Assembly: GCF_020804225.1 (NCBI RefSeq)
Contig: NZ_WJBI01000001.1
Span: 439,509-503,508, forward strand
Source: Methanosarcina sp. DH2
GTDB lineage: Archaea > Halobacteriota > Methanosarcinia > Methanosarcinales > Methanosarcinaceae
Reading direction: 5' to 3'
DNA: 64,000 nt
Shown: piece after piece, positions 2,728 through 47,055 of the stretch
Numbering within the stretch: position 1 is the first letter of the stretch
How the letters are laid out: each line of letters begins with the position of its first letter
Translations under genes and position numbers: made by a program
The notes under the pieces: model-generated
Told to the model about the DNA's origin: nothing
What the model saw: only the letters and a program-made list of their open reading frames with translations
Database searches by the model: none

Positions 2728-4272
2728 TTATCTTACAATTAATGATCTGCCTGTCATCTCTTCGGGTTTAGGGACCCTAAGAAGGTCCAGGAGAGTGGGA
2801 GCAAGGTCAGACAGTTTTCCATCCTCAAGGGCTTTTACTTCGCCGTTTCCTACGTAAATGCACCTTACAGAGTTTGAAGTATGAGCCGTATGTGGCTCTC
2901 CTGTATTTGGGTTTTCCATCTGTTCGGCATTTCCATGGTCTGCAGTTATAAGTGCTACGCCCCCTGCTTTTTTCAGAGCCTCTGTAATCCTTCCCACGCA
3001 GCTATCCACAGTCTCTACCGCCTGTACAGTAGCCTCAAAAAATCCTGTGTGCCCTACCATATCCATGTTTGCAAAGTTAAGTACAATTACATCATACTTT
3101 CCTGACTGAATCCTCCTGACTACCTCATCCGTAACTTCATATGCACTCATCTCAGGTTTGAGATCATAGGTGGCAATCTTCGGCGAGGGAATCAGGCAAC
3201 GGTCTTCTCCATCGTAACATTTTTCCTGTCCGCCATTCAGGAAAAAGGTCACATGGGCATATTTCTCGGTCTCAGCAATTCGAAGCTGGACAAGTCCATG
3301 ATTGCTCAATACTTTGCCAAGCACGTCTGTTAATTCTTCAGGTGGGAAAACGATGGGCAAATCCAGAGTTTCATCATACTGTGCCATACATACATAGTGA
3401 ACTTTCGGGCGTTTTTCCCTTGTGAAACCTTCAAAGTCGTCTTTTACAAAAGCCCAGGTGAGTTGCCTTGCCCTATCAGGCCTGAAATTAAAGAAAATTA
3501 CTGAATCATTATCTTTTATGACTGCTTCGGGTTTTCCTTCAGGGTCAGTAACTATAGTGGGTTTTACAAACTCATCGTTTTCTCCTCTATTGTAGGATTC
3601 AAGAACCGCAGTTTCGGCATCCTGGGATGTATATGGGGCGACTCCAAGCGTCAGGGCATCATACGCAAGCTTTGTCCTCTCCCAGCGTTTATCTCTGTCC
3701 ATTGCGTAATAGCGCCCTGATACTGTCGCAATTCTGGCACTTTCGTTCTCCTTACAAAAAGCATCAAGCTCCTTGACGTCTGCAAGAGCGGCTTTAGGTG
3801 GTACATCCCTCCCGTCCAGAAAAACATGTATATAAACTTTTTTAAGCCCTTCCTCTTTTGCAAGTTTGATAAGGGCGTAGAGGTGGGTCATGTAACTGTG
3901 AACGCCTCCGTAAGAGACTAGCCCCATAAGGTGCAGGCTTGAATTATTGGCTTTGGCGTTTGAAATTGCATTCAGCAAAACAGGGTTTTTGAAAAAGTCT
4001 CCAGTCCTGATTGAGAGGTTTATTCTTGTGAGGTCCTGGTAAACAACTCTTCCTGCCCCTATATTCAGGTGCCCGACTTCAGAGTTTCCCATCTGGCCTT
4101 CCGGCAGACCTACGGCTTCTCCCGAGGACTCTAAAAAGCACCAGGGATATTCTTCCAGCAGGCGGTCGAGGTTCGGGGTTCTGGCTGCCAGGATAGCGTT
4201 TCCTTCTTCAGCTTCCCTGTAGCCCCAGCCATCTAGGATCATAAGCATAAGAGGTCTTCTTGCCTGAGTCAT
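2728..4272 (-). CDS. gpmI: 2,3-bisphosphoglycerate-independent phosphoglycerate mutase
   Basis: Interconverts 3- and 2-phosphoglycerate in glycolysis/gluconeogenesis, Mn2+-dependent, cytoplasmic. The product shows the alkaline-phosphatase-superfamily layout: [12 protein letters not shown] at the start (first metal Asp), [18 protein letters not shown] carrying the phospho-serine Ser, the inserted phosphotransferase domain ([15 protein letters not shown]), and the second metal-binding set in [12 protein letters not shown] and [11 protein letters not shown]. The frame can begin at a GTG at 4290, but the ATG at 4272 ([10 protein letters not shown]) leaves about 514 residues, the usual length, with GGTG upstream. 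It is monocistronic. This is the bacterial-type iPGM rather than the archaeal ApgM type. Confidence 0.93.
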
Positions 4273-4364
4273 ATGAAGGGAATTCCGCACCTGCTCATAA
4301 ATAGCTTGTCATGAAACTACACAATATTCTGTACTAAGCTTCTCTAGAAGCTTCGTATGAAAAC

Positions 4365-4382
4365 AGCGTATTATATATTTAT
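4365..4382 (+). promoter_or_regulatory. Candidate TATA box for the acetate transporter gene
   Basis: The run TATTATATATTTATGATG lies about 165 bp before the transporter start and is the clearest TATA-like sequence upstream; if used, the gene has a long leader of roughly 140 nt. A strong ribosome site GGAGG is at 4531-4536, just ahead of ATG 4547. Confidence 0.35.
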
Positions 4383-4546
4383 GATGTATTGAAAATTTAT
4401 CTACTGTCCGTAAATATAAGTATTAATAATTACATACTTCTCCAAAAGGTAAAAAAGAGACGTTAAAAACGGCAGAGTGTCTCTACGTAATTTTTATTGG
4501 AAGTTCTAGGATAAATCTCCGATTAACGGGAAGGAGGATTGAATTA

Positions 4547-5152
4547 ATGAGTCAAGAAGTTAGAGATGTTATGAGTATTAGTGATATAAAAATAAGGGAT
4601 TTAACCGCAAATCCTGCTCCTCTAGGTTTGATGGGTTTCGGAATGACAACTGTGCTTTTGAACATACACAATGCCGGCTTTTACCCAATGGATGCAATGA
4701 TTCTTTCCATGGGCTTCTTTTATGGTGGCTTAGCTCAGATCATTGCCGGGATTATGGAATGGAAGAAAGGTAATACTTTTGGAACTACGGCTTTTACCTC
4801 ATACGGTTTGTTCTGGCTGACTCTGGTTGGAATTGTTCTGCTCCCGAAATTTTCGGAGAGTTACATGGCCCTGGCACCGGCCACTGTAGCCTTTGCTGCA
4901 TACCTCTTCATGTGGGGACTTTTCACCCTTTTCATGTTCGTAGGCACATTGAAAGGCACAAAGGCTCTGTCTGTTGTTTTCCTTGCCCTCGCAATCCTGT
5001 TCTTCTTGCTGGCCGCCGGAAACTATCTTGGCAGTGCAGCAATACTGAGAGTTGCAGGTTTTGAAGGGATCTTTACAGGACTTGCCGCAATCTATACGGC
5101 TCTTGGTCAGGTACTGAACGAAGCGTATGGGAAAAAGATAGTTCCTCTCTGA
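4547..5152 (+). CDS. AceP-type acetate/succinate transporter (GPR1/FUN34/YaaH family)
   Basis: Membrane channel/transporter for acetate, which in Methanosarcina would supply acetoclastic methanogenesis or export. The 201-residue protein has the family signature [11 protein letters not shown] at residues 22-32 and six predicted hydrophobic helices, with the conserved [20 protein letters not shown] and SYGLFW segments. Length is normal. It has a strong ribosome site and its own hairpin/T-tract terminator, so it is monocistronic. A homologue (AceP) has been described in Methanosarcina; the identity here is by family motif only. Confidence 0.88.
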
Positions 5153-34167: not shown

Positions 34168-34698
34168 ATGATTGAAGTGGAAGTCAAGGTAAGAGCGGAT
34201 CACTCAAAGATCCGCCCTCTCCTTGAGGAAATTGGGGCAAATAAAATTGGAATTGAAGAACAGTCAGATACCTATTTTGCAGCCCCATACCGGGATTTTG
34301 CAAAGACGGATGAGGCTCTCAGGATCCGTTCTCTGGGCGGCCAGGCTGTGCTGACCTATAAAGGTCCTAAACTCGATAAAGTCTCCAAAACCAGAGAAGA
34401 GCTCGAAACTCCTGTAGATGAGGCTACAACAGCAAAAATTTTTCAAGCTCTGGGGTTCTCGGAAGCTGGTGTAGTCCGCAAAAAAAGAGAAATCTTCAGC
34501 GCAGGAGGGATTACTATCTGTCTTGATGCAGTCGAAGGACTCGGGGAGTTCCTGGAAGTAGAGATTAATGTTAGTGACGAAAAAGATCTCGAAAGTTCAA
34601 GGGACCAATTATTTAAATTTTTATCTCGGTTTGGAGTCGATGAAAAAGATTCTATCCGCACTTCTTATCTTGAAATGGTATTCGAAAAGAAGAACTGA
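34168..34698 (+). CDS. cyaB: CYTH-domain protein (class IV adenylate cyclase / thiamine-triphosphatase type)
   Basis: CYTH proteins bind Mg2+ and organic phosphates in an acidic tunnel. The 176-residue product starts with the ExExK motif (E3, E5, K7: MIEVEVKV), has EALRIRS and VLTYKGPK strands, and ends with ICLDAVEGLGEFLEVEI, all typical. Both CyaB-like cyclase and triphosphatase activities exist in this family, so the substrate is open. GGAGATG ribosome site. It follows the mevalonate genes by 91 bp; co-transcription is possible but functionally unexplained. Confidence 0.87.
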   Translation: MIEVEVKVRADHSKIRPLLEEIGANKIGIEEQSDTYFAAPYRDFAKTDEALRIRSLGGQAVLTYKGPKLDKVSKTREELETPVDEATTAKIFQALGFSEAGVVRKKREIFSAGGITICLDAVEGLGEFLEVEINVSDEKDLESSRDQLFKFLSRFGVDEKDSIRTSYLEMVFEKKN

Positions 34699-34947
34699 AA
34701 GCCCTTAACTAGAAAGAGTAACTGTTCTGAAATCTTTTCGTTTTATACTCTTATTCTTCTTTTCTTATCCTCCTCCCCTTTCTTATCTGTCTTCTTCTCT
34801 CTTAGTTCTCTTTTCTATTCATCTTTTTCTTTATTGTGTCCAGTCTATATATTCAACAATCTTAATTTTCTACTATTCCACACTCTCATATTTTATATAC
34901 GGGGAGCTGCTAATATTCCATAGATTATTTTGGATTTGGAGTGGAAA
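34699..34947. other. Pyrimidine-rich intergenic with pilin promoter
   Basis: A TTCTTTTCTTATCC-type pyrimidine stretch (34740-34835), then TATA box TTTTATATA at 34891-34899. Translation of the pilin starts 48 bp later. Confidence 0.5.
34891..34899 (+). promoter_or_regulatory. TATA box of the pilin gene
   Basis: TTTTATATA, 49-57 bp before ATG 34948, predicting a leader of about 25 nt that contains the GGAG ribosome site at 34937. Confidence 0.6.
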
Positions 34948-35412
34948 ATGAGTGCGGCAGAGATTTTAAACAACAAAAGAGCTGTTTCACCGGTTGTTGG
35001 GGTCGCTTTATTAACTCTCTTAACTATTATTTTTGCATATGCTATAGGTTCCAGTAGTATTACAGGAATTTTACAGTCATATTCAACAGGTCTTGGAATG
35101 GGCGGCAGGCTCGATGGTGGAGAACTTGAGGGAAACCTGATAAAGCTTGAACACAACGGTGGAGAGCCATTTACCTTTCAGAATGATACAAAAGTCCTTG
35201 TAGAAGTCAAAGGAGATAGTTTCGAACTGAATATTTCCCATTTGTACGGCACAACCATAACTGCTGGGGACACATTAAGCCTTTACCTGACTCCCAGGTA
35301 TCCTGAAAATATTGGCAAACTCGATAATATAACTGCAGGGGATAAAATTGTTTTAAAAGTAATTGACGGACAGAAAAGGCTTATGGTCTTAAGGCAGGAA
35401 GTAGTGGTCTGA
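34948..35412 (+). CDS. Archaeal type IV pilin (DUF1628-type)
   Basis: The product starts MSAAEILNNKRAVSPVVGVA; the motif RAVSPVVG followed by the hydrophobic ALLTLLTIIFAYAIG is the class III signal plus assembly helix of archaeal pilins, processed by a PibD-like peptidase before or near AVSP. The remaining 110 residues form the beta-rich head (LIKLEHNGGEPFTFQN, VEVKGDSFELNISHLYG). An in-frame TTG at 34930 lacks a ribosome site; ATG 34948 has GGAG seven bases before it (154 residues). Single gene, with no assembly ATPase in the window. Confidence 0.88.
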   Translation: MSAAEILNNKRAVSPVVGVALLTLLTIIFAYAIGSSSITGILQSYSTGLGMGGRLDGGELEGNLIKLEHNGGEPFTFQNDTKVLVEVKGDSFELNISHLYGTTITAGDTLSLYLTPRYPENIGKLDNITAGDKIVLKVIDGQKRLMVLRQEVVV

Positions 35413-40901: not shown

Positions 40902-42878
40902 TTATTCATGGCTTCCCGCGTTTTTTCTGCAGATCTTATCAAGAAGGAGGATGTTGTCAAGAATGAGGGAACCGCTCCAGCCTAAAGGAATTGCCCAGGC
41001 TGGTTTGCCTGTAGATTTATCTACCTGTTCAGGGAGAAGCCCTGTGCTTGTTGCTCCGGCAAGAGCCCATCTCAGGCACTTAATCCCTTCACTGGTCAAT
41101 TTTTTCACCTCGTCTGCATATGGTCCCTCTTTTCCATTGGGGAGATCAAGGACAAAAGCAAACATAGCTTCTGAAAGCCAGAGAGTGGTTACTACCCAGG
41201 GATTTCCGTCGATGTAAGTATCATTTTCATAGCGTTTGATTCCGTAACCCGTATTGATAGGAATTGAGAGCTTTTTCTGGATGTTTTCTATCAGGAAAAG
41301 GATCATATCCCTTTCTACAGGGTCTTTCGGGGAGAGCATTCCAAAGGGTATATAGGCGCCCAGGACACTTGCATCAATTGTTTTATCCAGTTTTTCATTA
41401 ATAATACCTTTCGCAAAATAGCCCTCCTGAAGCCAGAAACGGTCAATTGTAGCTTGCTTGATAAACTCAGCTCTTTTCTTCCAGCGCCTTGCCATGCCAG
41501 ACTCACCGTTTTCTTCTGCAAGATGAGAAGCGCCCATAAGCCCTGCATAGATCGAGGCATTGGTGTACGTGAAAACTCCGTAATAAGTCTCCCACAGGTC
41601 CATACAGCTTTCATGCAGCCCGGACTTTGTCCTCTTCATCAGATACTCGGCAGCCCTGAGTACGGAGACCCAGACTTCCTCCAGGAACTCAACCTTTTTA
41701 AGACTTTCAAGAATCCTGTAATATACATCCATGGCATGAAGCGTGGCTCCGGTCTCGTCTATCTGGGTTGAATAATCAAAATTTCCCCAGGAAGGGGCTA
41801 TGTCCCCATTGAGCCAGTAACGCTGGAACCAGGAGCCGTCAGGCAGCTGGGTCCGGATACACCACTTGAAAAACCTGTCACAATATTCGGGATATCCGGA
41901 GTGCTTAAGGGCAAGCACTAACTCCGAAGTATCTCTGTTCCAGCAAAATCCGTATCCTCCGCATTTCTCAAAATTGGAATCAAACTCCGGGGCAGCTACA
42001 AAAGATCCGTATTCATGGTCATTAAGAAGGTAAAGCATAAGGAGAGCACGGTTATAAGCATTGAATAGTTCCTGGCGAAGGTTGTCGTATCCCTCGATTC
42101 CTGGCATTTTAAGCACGTGCTTTTTTGCTAGCCACATCACCCAGTGTTCCCGAGTTTTTTCAAAGATGTGCTCAAGAGGCAGTTTGGATAACTCATGCAT
42201 CCTCTTATACAGAAGGCTCCGGGAAGATGCAGCTCCTATAAAGATGACAAACTCATTTGCCCCATCAGCTTCCAGTTCAAGGTCCCAGCCAGCAGCGTTG
42301 TTGATATTTCCTATGTCTTCTTTATTCCGCTGCAGCTTTCCGTCTTCCATATCGTACTTGGAGTTTGTCCACCATATAGTATCCATTGCCTTTCCAACCT
42401 GCCATTCCGTAAACTCCGGCAGGGCATAGATTCCTATATAGTAATTTTGCCAGTACTGTGCAAGCAGGCGAGCTTCCGTATCGCAAAAACCTGAGTTTTT
42501 CTTGGAGGTTTCCCCCACATCGAAGTTCGAGTAGTAGAAAAATTTCCCGGACATCTTCTGCTGGGACTGCACCTTAAACCTGCGGATAAGGACAGGAACG
42601 TCGGGGTGCACAAGGTCAAGAATCGAGATCCTTATCCCGGAATCGTGGTAAAGTTTTGTGGATACGATATTGGTATCCTCTATGTAGTTTTGAATTGAGT
42701 GCCAGTCATTGTCGTTTGTCCAGAGAAGTCTTTCTCCTGTGTAGATGCAGGCAACGGATTCTTCTACATGCTGGGCATGGTCTCTGCGGGGATAAAATAA
42801 CCCTAAGATTTCCCCTCTTTTTCCCATTGTTACGAGCAGCTCATTATTTCCCAGAATGGCGTTAGGTTGTCTGATCAC
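40902..42878 (-). CDS. Glycoside hydrolase family 15 (glucoamylase-like)
   Basis: Cleaves terminal glucose from alpha-glucans or short oligosaccharides. The 658-residue protein has a beta-rich N-terminal domain (MIRQPNAILGNNELLVTMG, FYPRRDHAQHVEES) and an (alpha/alpha)6 barrel with the GYGFCWNRDTSELVLAL segment, QIDETGATLHA, where the Glu of the IDETG motif is the expected general acid, and DGNPWVVTTLWLSEAM near the second catalytic site. No signal peptide, so intracellular. Its GTG start overlaps the upstream gene stop (GTGA). Last gene of a four-gene operon for glycogen breakdown. Confidence 0.9.
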   Translation of the reverse strand: MIRQPNAILGNNELLVTMGKRGEILGLFYPRRDHAQHVEESVACIYTGERLLWTNDNDWHSIQNYIEDTNIVSTKLYHDSGIRISILDLVHPDVPVLIRRFKVQSQQKMSGKFFYYSNFDVGETSKKNSGFCDTEARLLAQYWQNYYIGIYALPEFTEWQVGKAMDTIWWTNSKYDMEDGKLQRNKEDIGNINNAAGWDLELEADGANEFVIFIGAASSRSLLYKRMHELSKLPLEHIFEKTREHWVMWLAKKHVLKMPGIEGYDNLRQELFNAYNRALLMLYLLNDHEYGSFVAAPEFDSNFEKCGGYGFCWNRDTSELVLALKHSGYPEYCDRFFKWCIRTQLPDGSWFQRYWLNGDIAPSWGNFDYSTQIDETGATLHAMDVYYRILESLKKVEFLEEVWVSVLRAAEYLMKRTKSGLHESCMDLWETYYGVFTYTNASIYAGLMGASHLAEENGESGMARRWKKRAEFIKQATIDRFWLQEGYFAKGIINEKLDKTIDASVLGAYIPFGMLSPKDPVERDMILFLIENIQKKLSIPINTGYGIKRYENDTYIDGNPWVVTTLWLSEAMFAFVLDLPNGKEGPYADEVKKLTSEGIKCLRWALAGATSTGLLPEQVDKSTGKPAWAIPLGWSGSLILDNILLLDKICRKNAGSHE

Positions 42879-43681
42879 CTGATCTCCCCTCTGAGCTGGT
42901 GTTCCTGATTTGGACTGGAGGGAGCCAGGGAGATTATGTGTTCGCAGACATTCTTCCCGGTGGCTTTACAGCTGACTTCCCTCACACTTATATTCTTCCC
43001 GAAATACTCGGTCAGGTAACCCGCAAAATAGCCGCTCATGAAGGCACATACCGGCTGGTCCGATCCACCGTAAACATCGGCTATAAACGACTCTTTTACA
43101 ATAATTTTTCCTTCATAGGTTTCGGGGTTGCAGTCAATTTCCAGGATTCCCCAGCCCACAGCTCTGTAGAGTTCTGCAAGCATGCTTGCGAAGTTGCTGT
43201 CATTAATGGGCATAATGCTCTTGAAATATTTTGCGGCATGGGTACCTCCCCGTAGTCCGGATAGGGTAAGAAGCCCTTCGGCATGTGGCACACTCTGGTT
43301 AAGGGTTTTTATTATGTCGACAATAGTGAGTGCCCTTGCCATAACTCCCCTGACTCCTATGACGTTCAGGGGGAAGTCAACGGAGTAAATCATCCCGAAT
43401 TCCGAAACCCCATGTTCCACTGTACTCACAACTTCCAGTTCTTCGATTTTCCGGGCAAGCTCCCCCATATCAACATCTTTCTTAAGCTCTGTAAATATTG
43501 AGTATTCTCCTGTTTTTTGTGTAATATTGTCGATATGCCCGAAAGTGATGAACGCATTTTCTTTTTCAAGAAAATCAGTTATTATAGATAAAGAGCCAGG
43601 CTCTTTTGAATATGTAATCTTGAACCATACAATTCGCGAATCTTCGTTGAATCCTGCAAACATGCATAAGTCCCTAACCAT
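42875..43681 (-). CDS. ACT domain plus V4R domain sensor protein
   Basis: About 268 residues. The N-terminal ACT domain (about 15-90: RIVWFKITYSKEPGSLSIIT, VEHGVSEFG) usually binds a small metabolite; the C-terminal V4R domain (about 180-255, VREVSCKATGKNVCEHII) is a small-molecule/hydrocarbon or corrinoid-binding fold with a conserved Cys pair. No DNA-binding domain is seen, so it may sense a ligand and act on the neighbouring enzymes. A TTG at 43690 is in frame, but the GGAG there is too close; ATG 43681 is chosen. It lies between GH57 and GH15 and overlaps GH15 by 4 bp. Confidence 0.8.
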   Translation of the reverse strand: MVRDLCMFAGFNEDSRIVWFKITYSKEPGSLSIITDFLEKENAFITFGHIDNITQKTGEYSIFTELKKDVDMGELARKIEELEVVSTVEHGVSEFGMIYSVDFPLNVIGVRGVMARALTIVDIIKTLNQSVPHAEGLLTLSGLRGGTHAAKYFKSIMPINDSNFASMLAELYRAVGWGILEIDCNPETYEGKIIVKESFIADVYGGSDQPVCAFMSGYFAGYLTEYFGKNISVREVSCKATGKNVCEHIISLAPSSPNQEHQLRGEIR

Positions 43682-43733
43682 ATAACTCAAACTCCAGTTG
43701 ATCTGTACGCATATTCTGTACGCATATATTTCC

Positions 43734-44930
43734 TTAAGCCATTGTGCTGAGTTTTCTGAATACCTGGGCTTTGAAGTCCATAAGTACAGCCATGAAATTC
43801 ACTGCTGCCTCGAAAGGAGTGGAATGAACACTGAAATAAGAATGCACGTCTCCGTCCCCGAGCCACTTGGTGCACATGTAGTAGTAATGGTCCGAAGTTA
43901 AAAGGTGCTTCCATATACGCAGGATTTCAGGGTCTCCTGTCTTTTTCACAAAAGGCTCAAGCAGTTTTATTTCTTCAAAACAACGTCTTTGCATATCGTT
44001 TCCAAGCCATGCGCTGGTGTCGCGCTCCATATCAGCCCAGGAAATCGTTGAAAAGTCTCCAACATCGATCTCAGCTACAGGTGAATATTTTCTGGCAACC
44101 TCTACAGGAGTACTGAATTCCAGGCCTTTTTTAAGGACTTCTGCAGGTAGTTTTTCCATAAAATCAAAAATCCCGGTTTCTCTCCACTGATGCTCTCCAA
44201 AAGTTTCATAGTCCATAAAGATATTAACGCAGTCCTCTTTAACCCCTGAAGCCCATGAAGCCCATTTTTCCGCAGTCAGAGGATAGCCTTCCCACCATCT
44301 TGCAGAGAAACGATATCCTATATCGTCGCTCAGTTTGTAGTTCCTGAAGAGAATGGGTAACCCTGAGTCTTTTGCCTTATAAAGGACGTTAGGAGATCTC
44401 TCCTCAAGCATATGGTCCGCACCTTCCGTGAGAATTGCCTTATAACCCAGCTCGGAAGCGATCTTTGCTACAGTATTGTTATAGAGCAGTTCTGTGTTTC
44501 GGAATACCTGAGGTTTAACTCCGAGGAGATCGGAAACAATTTGTTTATGTTCCTTAACTTCTTCGATAAATTCTGTTTTGTCATCAAAAAGGCTTGAAAG
44601 GGAATGGTAAAAGGTCTCGTCCAGAAGCTCCACAGCTCCTGTTTCTACAAGTTGACGGAAGCTCTCCAGCACCTCTTTTCCCCAGAATTCGCACTGTTCA
44701 AGCAGTGTACCGGTAATCGAAAGTGAAAACCTGAATTCTCCTTTATATTCGTCAAGTGACTCCAGAAGAGCCCTGTTTGCAGGGAGATAGCATTTCTGGG
44801 CTACTCTTTCGAAAATTTCTCTGTTGCTTCTTTCATCAAAGTATCGAAAGAAGCCAGACCTGTCATCAGGCCAGAACCTGCGCAGCCTGAAAGGCTGATG
44901 CACCTGAAAGTACATGCAAAGGGAAGTCAT
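43734..44930 (-). CDS. Glycoside hydrolase family 57 (alpha-amylase/glucanotransferase type)
   Basis: Acts on alpha-1,4 glucans with retention. The 398-residue protein keeps all GH57 signatures: QVHQP near residue 9, the nucleophile Glu147 in FRNTELLYNN, the general-acid Asp240 in FMDYETFGEHQ, and TEGADHML. Length fits archaeal cytoplasmic GH57 amylases. It overlaps the upstream GH57-like gene by ATGA and is 52 bp from the ACT-V4R gene. Expected to work with GH15 on storage glycogen. Confidence 0.9.
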   Translation of the reverse strand: MTSLCMYFQVHQPFRLRRFWPDDRSGFFRYFDERSNREIFERVAQKCYLPANRALLESLDEYKGEFRFSLSITGTLLEQCEFWGKEVLESFRQLVETGAVELLDETFYHSLSSLFDDKTEFIEEVKEHKQIVSDLLGVKPQVFRNTELLYNNTVAKIASELGYKAILTEGADHMLEERSPNVLYKAKDSGLPILFRNYKLSDDIGYRFSARWWEGYPLTAEKWASWASGVKEDCVNIFMDYETFGEHQWRETGIFDFMEKLPAEVLKKGLEFSTPVEVARKYSPVAEIDVGDFSTISWADMERDTSAWLGNDMQRRCFEEIKLLEPFVKKTGDPEILRIWKHLLTSDHYYYMCTKWLGDGDVHSYFSVHSTPFEAAVNFMAVLMDFKAQVFRKLSTMA

Positions 44931-46063
44931 GCCCCTTCCTCCAGAACGGATCTTCTTAAATCCGAAAGAATGGAATAGTAGTTTACAGCTCTCTCATGTC
45001 CTTCACGTGCGTTTCCCGGGCCCATTGAAAAAAGGATTTCACTTTGCTGAAGGTAACCGAAAACCCGTTTCAGCTTTTGATAGTTCTTCTTTTCTTTAAT
45101 TTCCGTAAGTTCTTCCCCTACTCTTACAAGCTCCCTTAGGTAGAGCTGCTGAGCATGGTTTCCGACAGCATTGTGCATTCCGTAGCGGATTGTCTGTTCG
45201 GTCCCAAGGGTTGGAAGCCTCAAAGGGATGAACCTGCTTACTGCTTCCGAAGGTGTGATCATCTCAATGCCCCGGTTCTTCAGTGCTTCCGGAAAAGCCC
45301 GTATAAATTCGGCTATCATGCTCTTGCTCCTGTGGTGAAGGCAAAGGCTTGTGTAATTTAGATAAAGGGTAAGTACATCCCCTTCAATGCCTGCAATCCA
45401 GTCTGCAAATTTTTCCGGGATTAGGGGATAGCCTTCCCAGCTTTTTTCCGAAAAACGCAGTTCAAGGTCTTCACTGAGATTTATGTGCCTGAGAAGGATA
45501 GGAAGGTCATTTTCAAAAACGCGGACGGGATCGTATCCGTCCAGAATGTTTCTTGACCCTTCGGCAATAAGGCACCTGAAACCCATATTCGCAAGTATAT
45601 TTCCCACTCTCTCCGTATACAGTAGTTCCGTATTCACAAAAGTCCCTGGGTTTACTCCTAATAATTCCTTGAGCATTTCCCTGTAAATTGTTACTTCTTC
45701 TCTAAACCAGGAAAGGTCAGGATAAAGAGAGCTAAGGGAATGGTAACTGCAGCTTCCTGTAAACTCTACCTTTCTGCTTTCTGCAAGCTCCCTGAAAGAC
45801 TCAAGAAGTTCAGGGTCCCACCTGCACTGTTCCAGGAAAGGACCTGAAAGGTCAAAAGTGTAACTTCCCCCTCTCTCAATTGATTCCATAAAAAGGTCAT
45901 TAAGGCGCAAAAGTTCTCTGCCACTTTTTAAGAGTCTTGAAAAAATCTGATTCCGATCAAAATACCGGTCCATTTCAGGCACCCCGGAAAAACCCTCTAC
46001 AGGCCAGTACCATTTTGGACTGTAAGGCAGATGCACTCCCACACACATGCAAACGGCTTTCAT
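44927..46063 (-). CDS. GH57-like protein, probable pseudoenzyme
   Basis: 378 residues, collinear with the neighbouring GH57 (same order: HxP start, SCSYHSLSSLYPDL, NTELLY, WEGYPLIPEKFADW). The catalytic nucleophile position is kept (Glu146 in FVNTELLY), but the general acid Asp is Asn236 in LNYTSLCLHH where the active paralogue has DYETFGEH, and HQP reads HLP. Loss of the Asp, the following Glu and the FG pair argues against hydrolysis. It heads the operon and is translationally coupled (ATGA) to the active copy, so it may form a hetero-oligomer or regulate it. Confidence 0.8.
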   Translation of the reverse strand: MKAVCMCVGVHLPYSPKWYWPVEGFSGVPEMDRYFDRNQIFSRLLKSGRELLRLNDLFMESIERGGSYTFDLSGPFLEQCRWDPELLESFRELAESRKVEFTGSCSYHSLSSLYPDLSWFREEVTIYREMLKELLGVNPGTFVNTELLYTERVGNILANMGFRCLIAEGSRNILDGYDPVRVFENDLPILLRHINLSEDLELRFSEKSWEGYPLIPEKFADWIAGIEGDVLTLYLNYTSLCLHHRSKSMIAEFIRAFPEALKNRGIEMITPSEAVSRFIPLRLPTLGTEQTIRYGMHNAVGNHAQQLYLRELVRVGEELTEIKEKKNYQKLKRVFGYLQQSEILFSMGPGNAREGHERAVNYYSILSDLRRSVLEEGA

Positions 46064-46622
46064 AACAAAATAGTCTTGTGCGGAAACCTACTAAAAACTA
46101 TTGTTTCTCTCAGCCTTTTGCCTGTAATGGAATTCTTGGTCATACTCAAAAAGCTGGCCTCTGGTTAATTGTTTTCATCTATTTCCGGAATTCTTAAAGG
46201 AATCTTTCAGTTTTCTCTCCCTGCGCCGCATGAGATTGGGGTCAGCCTGTCAGGTAAGAATAAACAATCGGTAAACCAGTAATGCAATTAAGAGAGACAA
46301 TATATTAAAGAAACATCCTCCTGTCCCAGGTAATAATTTTCCCTTATCCCGAAAATTGGTCTTAAATTCGCAGGTAAATATAAACGCCCCCACCAGCTTG
46401 TCCGGTGGCCTTCTCCCTGGGTAGAGGAAGAATGAAGTTGAAGGAAGAAACTCGGAAAGGCAGTAAAAAGCAGTAACGCAGGTGTAGATTACCATTTGTC
46501 TATTTTATATTTTTTTCTTCCTTTTTGTCTTCGAGGCTACTCCCCTTCGTCGAGCGTAATAAGAATGGTTCAGTATCACGAATAAGGTTGTATGAGTCGA
46601 GGTTTGTTGTTTTGTCTTTTTA

Positions 46623-46648
46623 GTCCTCTTGAGCGTAGCGAAAAGGAC
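46623..46648. repeat. Dispersed GTCCT...AGGAC motif
   Basis: GTCCTCTTGAG-CGTAGCG-AAAAGGAC, an imperfect inverted repeat. Its complement reads GTCCTTTTCGCT...CTCAAGAGGAC and matches the hairpin at 23233-23268 (GTCCTTTTTGCT...CTCGAGAGGAC). A third, decayed copy may lie at 46817-46845. Confidence 0.5.
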
Positions 46649-46659
46649 CGCGTACTCCC

Positions 46660-46707
46660 GAGGCGCAATTCGGGCGAGACGCAATTCGGGCGAGACGCAA
46701 TTCGGGT
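46660..46707. repeat. 16-bp tandem repeat, three copies
   Basis: Unit GAGACGCAATTCGGGC: copies at 46660-46675 (GAGGCG variant), 46676-46691 and 46692-46707 (last base T). Period exactly 16. Confidence 0.9.
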
Positions 46708-47055
46708 GTGACAAAAACGACACGGAATAGCTGATACGGTTGTGCAGATCAGAGATAGGCCCGAAATAGTTGTAATTTAACCCTCTTGAACTCAATTACT
46801 GCTGTACCTCCTTATTTAGTTCTCTTGAGCACAGCTCTTAAAAGAATAGCTCTGAAAAAAAGTTGAAGATTAATGTGAAAAGCCGGAAAGCAGTCTATCA
46901 ATAACATATTAAAAGTAACTGGGTAAAAACAACAGAATCAATAAAAGTATAAAAATAGCGGGCGAAATAAAAAGAGTAAAGGTCAACGGCTGAAAAATAG
47001 TCTGTAGCGAGTTAAAAAATACGCCGGGCTAAAAAGAATCAGGGGATGAATTTAA

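Follow-up and report, generated by a model that had tools for sequence, protein, structure and literature searches.

A probable GH57 pseudoenzyme encoded in overlap with its intact paralogue at an alpha-glucan locus of Methanosarcina

Results

Four genes with a probable role in alpha-glucan handling

The window, a 64,000-nucleotide stretch of contig NZ_WJBI01000001.1 from Methanosarcina sp. DH2, carries two adjoining GH57 genes followed by genes for an ACT-V4R protein and a GH15 protein. We refer to the product of the first gene as GH57L and to that of the second as GH57. The features of the locus are as follows:

49203-47056, upstream of GH57L: PurL-like gene, named by eye from sequence
46064..46106, minus strand: conserved block adjoining the GH57L start upstream, probable operon promoter/leader
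46063-44927, minus strand: GH57L (378 aa), GH57 alpha-amylase-like, probable pseudoenzyme (Pfam and alignment)
44927..44930, minus strand: 4-bp ATGA overlap of the GH57L stop and the GH57 start
44930-43734, minus strand: GH57 (398 aa), alpha-amylase signature intact (Pfam and alignment)
43681-42875, minus strand: ACT-V4R (268 aa), ATG start (Pfam V4R, ACT by profile and model)
42875..42878, minus strand: 4-bp GTGA overlap of the ACT-V4R stop and the GH15 start
42878-40902, minus strand: GH15 (658 aa), GTG start, oligosaccharide amylase/glucoamylase type (Pfam and TIGR01577)

Re-reading of the open reading frames returned the same genes, coordinates and spacings (-4, +52 and -4) as the initial annotation, the 52-bp gap lying between the end of GH57 and the start of ACT-V4R. 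A GGAGG-type ribosome site sits within the 3' end of GH57L. About 1 kb with no recognised gene separates the PurL-like gene from GH57L, and a seryl-tRNA synthetase gene on the opposite strand lies downstream of the cluster. Across most Methanosarcina loci, the 43 bp that precede GH57L share ~86-95% identity; because of this conservation, the block is the most likely start of the operon. An Rfam scan of the whole window gave no match. The layout is best explained as one operon for intracellular alpha-glucan handling, for which we infer a single transcript and translational coupling at the overlaps.

The downstream GH57 and GH15 resemble working enzymes

GH57 matches the Pfam GH57 family with 313 bits and contains the motifs QVHQP, RNTELL (with the nucleophile Glu147), MDYETFGEH (with the acid Asp240) and SDHYYY. 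Its sequence logo shows the alpha-amylase signature Q/E1, R/E12, T23 and YY35-36 (with Q1 and R12 present), which places the protein with the alpha-amylase type and not with the branching-enzyme type. GH57 is predicted to be a working alpha-amylase-type enzyme, possibly with an additional chain-transferring or branching activity. The GH15 protein matches Pfam GH15 as well as the NCBIfam oligosaccharide amylase model TIGR01577, where its score of 1014 bits exceeds the cut-off of 821.

GH57L has lost catalytic parts of the GH57 fold

GH57L also belongs to the family, with a Pfam PF03065 match of 216.5 bits and a predicted structure (pLDDT 90.8) whose best Foldseek matches are GH57 structures. 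A phmmer search of PDB sequences matched no GH57 structure with either protein; the amylopullulanase of Aquifex aeolicus (9iht) was a weak PDB profile match for the GH57s. We aligned 48 GH57L sequences with 48 GH57 sequences and 13 outgroup GH57s, using the numbering of the GH57 in the window. The columns of Glu147 and Asp240 are intact in all GH57 sequences (48/48) and all outgroups (13/13). In GH57L, the Glu column holds Glu in 45 sequences, Gln in two and Asp in one, and the Asp column holds Asn in 28, Lys in 13, Arg and Ser in one each, and Asp in the remaining five, so that the acid Asp is gone in 43 of the 48. Asp is kept together with Glu at loci L107, L108 and L112, together with Gln in place of Glu at L109, and together with Asp in place of Glu at L111.

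Two deletions are shared by all 48 GH57L proteins. They remove the loops at GH57 residues 300-304 (SWADMERDTSAW) and 360-367 (GDVHSYFS), both of which hold residues that are invariant in active GH57s. Conserved region 5 (SDHYYYM) is likewise lost. In the GH57L of the window, position 12, with which conserved region 3 begins, is non-aromatic (Val143 in VNTELL), in agreement with a published rule (PMC6037648). The old-barrel residues Glu146, His11, His108, Asp199 and Trp222 are largely retained.

The substitutions reported by the initial annotation for the GH57L in the window were all recovered on alignment to the downstream GH57 and the 13 outgroups: Glu146 is kept, Asn236 replaces the acid Asp, TS stands for ET, LC for FG and HLP for HQP. 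The emphasis of that annotation on the lost Asp holds for the GH57L in the window and for 43 of the 48 proteins; as the universal lesion, loss of Asp at position 236 is rejected, as five proteins retain it. Since both loops are absent throughout, Asn236 appears to be a later detail within a loss that is older and broader. Together with retention of the gene across the family, these losses uphold the description of the upstream protein as a probable pseudoenzyme.

We also considered that GH57L might still be an enzyme whose chemistry or substrate has changed and which uses the Glu only or another acid. The Glu kept in 45 of 48 proteins and the Asp kept in five would fit such an enzyme, as would the acidic residues D178, E201, E206 and E227, which are present in GH57L and absent in GH57. 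The sequence alignment pointed to no obvious substitute acid among these four columns. The loss of Glu itself in three proteins, the lack of a consistent replacement in the Asp column and above all the deletion of several invariant residues with the two loops speak against this reading, which we regard as very improbable. Residual chemistry is formally possible in the three of 48 proteins that keep both catalytic residues.

The GH57L-GH57 pair is conserved and inherited jointly

The initial annotation had suggested a search for the same gene order in relatives, and adjacency was read directly in 47 further loci. GH57L directly precedes GH57 in all of them, with the -4 overlap in 45; the two exceptions are deep loci in which the spacing is +5. 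This confirms that the order of the two genes is conserved well beyond chance. Among 112 genomes of the family, 93 have both GH57 matches, 17 have neither and two have fragments only, the latter being assemblies that are 60% and 75% complete. The 17 genomes without either GH57 also lack the operonic GH15 and have at most a distant GH15 paralogue. Outside the order, each of the 13 relatives examined has one GH57 whose motifs are intact and no adjoining GH57L; most of these proteins measure 460-510 aa.

In a quick tree of 29 GH57L, 29 GH57 and 13 outgroup sequences, GH57L forms one clade on a long stem (support 100) and GH57 another (support 97). In both clades L112 is the first to branch and L111 the second; these loci come from two other families in the order, and the pattern fits one duplication in an ancestor within the Methanosarcinales, before these families split. 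The branch joining GH57L to GH57 has a support of 7 and the tree was flagged for long branches among GH57L, so the exact source of the GH57L duplicate is unsure.

Compared with close Methanosarcina genomes, dN/dS is 0.06-0.13 for GH57L, 0.03-0.08 for GH57, 0.06-0.12 for ACT-V4R and 0.04-0.06 for GH15. GH57L is under purifying selection while its catalytic parts are lost. These ratios, the open reading frame at every locus read and the retention of the gene across the family led us to reject the reading of GH57L as a pseudogene or decaying copy. The protein evolves faster than its neighbor, with a tree length of 12.7 versus 7.2 for GH57. In branch-rate covariation, GH57L and GH57 give the top value (partial rho 0.53, versus 0.41 and 0.33, with time only partly controlled), in weak agreement with a partnership of the two proteins.

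ACT-V4R combines sensor features and is an accessory gene

The ACT-V4R protein described by the initial annotation proved to be real and to carry the hallmarks of a sensor. Its V4R domain (residues ~118-252; PF02830, 71 bits) matches PoxR, DmpR, MopR and MJ1460 by profile and fold, and Cys212, Glu235, Cys238, Cys246 and Trp177 are invariant in all 37 ACT-V4R sequences. Pfam calls no ACT domain in the protein. AF1403 (1y7p), a protein with an ACT domain, is hit by a profile of the family at E 0.0035, and the AlphaFold model (pLDDT 77.5, with an uncertain linker at residues 96-116) has a beta-alpha-beta-beta-alpha-beta arrangement at residues 15-93 (strands 15-25, 44-51, 57-67 and 85-93; helices 30-40 and 72-80).

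The spacing of the three cysteines, 26 and 8 residues, is identical to that in two characterized V4R sensors, namely DmpR, in which C151, C177 and C185 are zinc ligands (PMC7264223), and MsvR of Methanosarcina acetivorans, in which C206, C232 and C240 are redox-relevant (PMC3729527). This likeness suggests a metal- or redox-type sensor. Unlike MsvR, DmpR, MopR and MJ1460, ACT-V4R has an ACT domain and no recognised DNA-binding or AAA+ domain; with no DNA-binding domain recognised, an action on proteins is plausible.

One reading of these features is that GH57, GH57L and ACT-V4R form a single complex under allosteric control, with a small ligand on the ACT or V4R domain as the gate. In its favor, besides the lack of a recognised DNA-binding domain, full-length ACT-V4R relatives occur only in this operon setting among the genomes searched, and most loci show the 4-bp overlap of ACT-V4R with GH15. 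However, the neighbor to which ACT-V4R is coupled is GH15 and not the GH57s, and 22 genomes keep the GH57L-GH57 pair without ACT-V4R, so that, on the tree, the gene was lost independently at least four times. These 22 genomes indicate that ACT-V4R is an accessory gene product that does not belong to the core of any complex, and we consider the three-way complex improbable. Of the proposal in the initial annotation, the close linkage of GH57L with an intact GH57 is borne out throughout the family, ACT-V4R as a core component is not, and the proposed allostery and physical association stand as predictions. Our literature search for a link between ACT-V4R and GH57 found none.

Discussion

A probable non-catalytic subunit for an archaeal GH57

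We consider it probable that GH57L has a non-catalytic role as a subunit alongside GH57, in a heteromer that acts on intracellular glycogen. According to this model, for which we infer the heteromer, its glucan binding and its control by a sensor, GH57L would be a dead paralogue that arose in one duplication and was kept as a subunit. Coupled translation from one message would yield GH57L beside GH57, and GH57L would then bind GH57 and supply glucan binding, stability or control of activity. GH15 would finish maltodextrins to glucose, and ACT-V4R would be a dispensable sensor, present in most genera and missing from others, through which the system is adjusted. The partner is probably the GH57 protein because the 4-bp overlap is specific to it in 45 of 47 loci and because the two genes are present and lost together. 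Overlaps may also be conserved simply because the two proteins are needed in equal amounts.

The faster evolution of GH57L also suits a role apart from GH57. GH57L might be a lectin-like, glucan-binding scaffold that recruits enzymes to glycogen particles with no stoichiometric heteromer, and the largely kept barrel residues are what a retained sugar cleft would be expected to show. The coupling of GH57L specifically to GH57 and their joint presence and loss count against such independence, and we judge this role unlikely, if less so than the other alternatives. The heteromer with GH57 remains our preferred reading.

The initial annotation called the operon enzyme glycogenolytic, which was not established. 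The host genome encodes a GT3-type glycogen synthase, a phosphorylase and GDE-type debranching proteins and gave no GH13 match; GH57L and GH57 are the only GH57s in its 4.6 Mb. A review asks whether GH57 "amylases" are the missing branching enzyme in archaea that lack classical ones, and classes the Sulfolobus "alpha-amylase" encoded by amyA as GH57 (PMC11046441). AmyA seems to hydrolyse glycogen, yet Sulfolobus is left without any when amyA is deleted (PMC8158581). As the host has no GH13, its GH57 may also serve as the branching enzyme. Since hydrolytic and branching roles are both possible, the term should read "alpha-glucan acting".

A bolder proposal is that a redox- or metal-sensing ACT-V4R gates both the GH57-GH57L heteromer and GH15, and thereby switches the cell from building glycogen to using it according to its redox or amino-acid state; GH57 would be the branching enzyme that is otherwise missing. 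We regard this as a speculative and rather doubtful extension; if true, archaeal glycogen turnover would here be under the control of a pseudoenzyme.

Little work has addressed how glycogen is made and used in methanogens. Where neither a GH13 nor a classical GH57 branching enzyme is present, a question raised in the literature is which enzyme introduces the branches (PMC11046441). Almost all Methanosarcinaceae genomes with a live GH57 keep a dead one beside it, which offers a genetically tractable way to study the pair. If GH57L is a subunit, work on a recombinant Methanosarcinales GH57 expressed alone would have measured half an enzyme.

Comparison with known systems

A close functional parallel is the plant isoamylase pair ISA1/ISA2. 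Like GH57L, ISA2 is a dead paralogue from an ancient duplication that partners an active alpha-glucan enzyme, and it is non-catalytic within ISA1/ISA2 heteromers (PMC12510319). The plant proteins differ in being eukaryotic GH13 debranching enzymes, and their interaction is proven, whereas that of GH57L and GH57 is our prediction. The AdoMetDC prozyme of trypanosomes (PMC5201418), also catalytically dead, activates the paralogue that has kept its activity; it belongs to another enzyme class and is a mechanistic parallel only.

Among GH57 proteins, the GH57 in the window can be likened to the alpha-amylase of Methanocaldococcus jannaschii, the only experimentally characterized GH57 alpha-amylase in PMC6037648, on the basis of the alpha-amylase signature (Q1, R12, T23 and YY35-36) in the window protein. 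GH57L is a candidate member of the GH57 alpha-amylase-like (AAMY-like) group in CAZy, with which it shares GH57 homology, a substituted catalytic residue and a non-aromatic position 12. As described, this group lies near the GH57 alpha-amylases, has one or both catalytic residues replaced, does not require an aromatic residue where conserved region 3 begins, and includes 60 archaeal proteins among 126 listed members. GH57 alpha-amylase-like pseudoenzymes are therefore an already published class. The passages of that account considered here treat sequences only and do not describe a coupled pair with an active GH57, shared deletions or joint inheritance. In relation to the literature searched, what appears to be new is a family-wide overlapping pair of a live and a dead GH57, with two shared deletions, joint losses and an ACT-V4R companion.

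Upstream region and neighbouring genes

Window 46064-46106, conserved block preceding the GH57L start
Window 46622-46716, recurring stretch upstream of the operon
Window 42875-43681 (-), ACT-V4R
Window 34168-35412, CYTH-domain protein, then one carrying an archaeal type IV pilin N-terminal domain

The 43 bp immediately preceding the start of GH57L, the GH57-like first gene of the operon, are ~86-95% conserved across Methanosarcina in the locus comparison, and outside this block the 1-kb upstream gap is mostly unconserved among the Methanosarcina loci. The block likely comprises the core promoter and leader. The recurring stretch is also present in Methanosarcina loci L076, L077, L078, and L079, at varying distances from the operon, and is probably a dispersed intergenic repeat.

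In the related locus L073, the GH15 gene (2941-4960, -) is broken into two frames, through pseudogenisation or a mistake in the assembly. The host genome also encodes a second, distant GH15 paralogue (G000:C9:3921-5564; 31% identity) outside the operon, as do many other Methanosarcinaceae.

Fold neighbours of the predicted ACT-V4R model include AxCesD/BcsD (structure 3a8e, which contains cellopentaose), a glucan-binding subunit of cellulose synthase.
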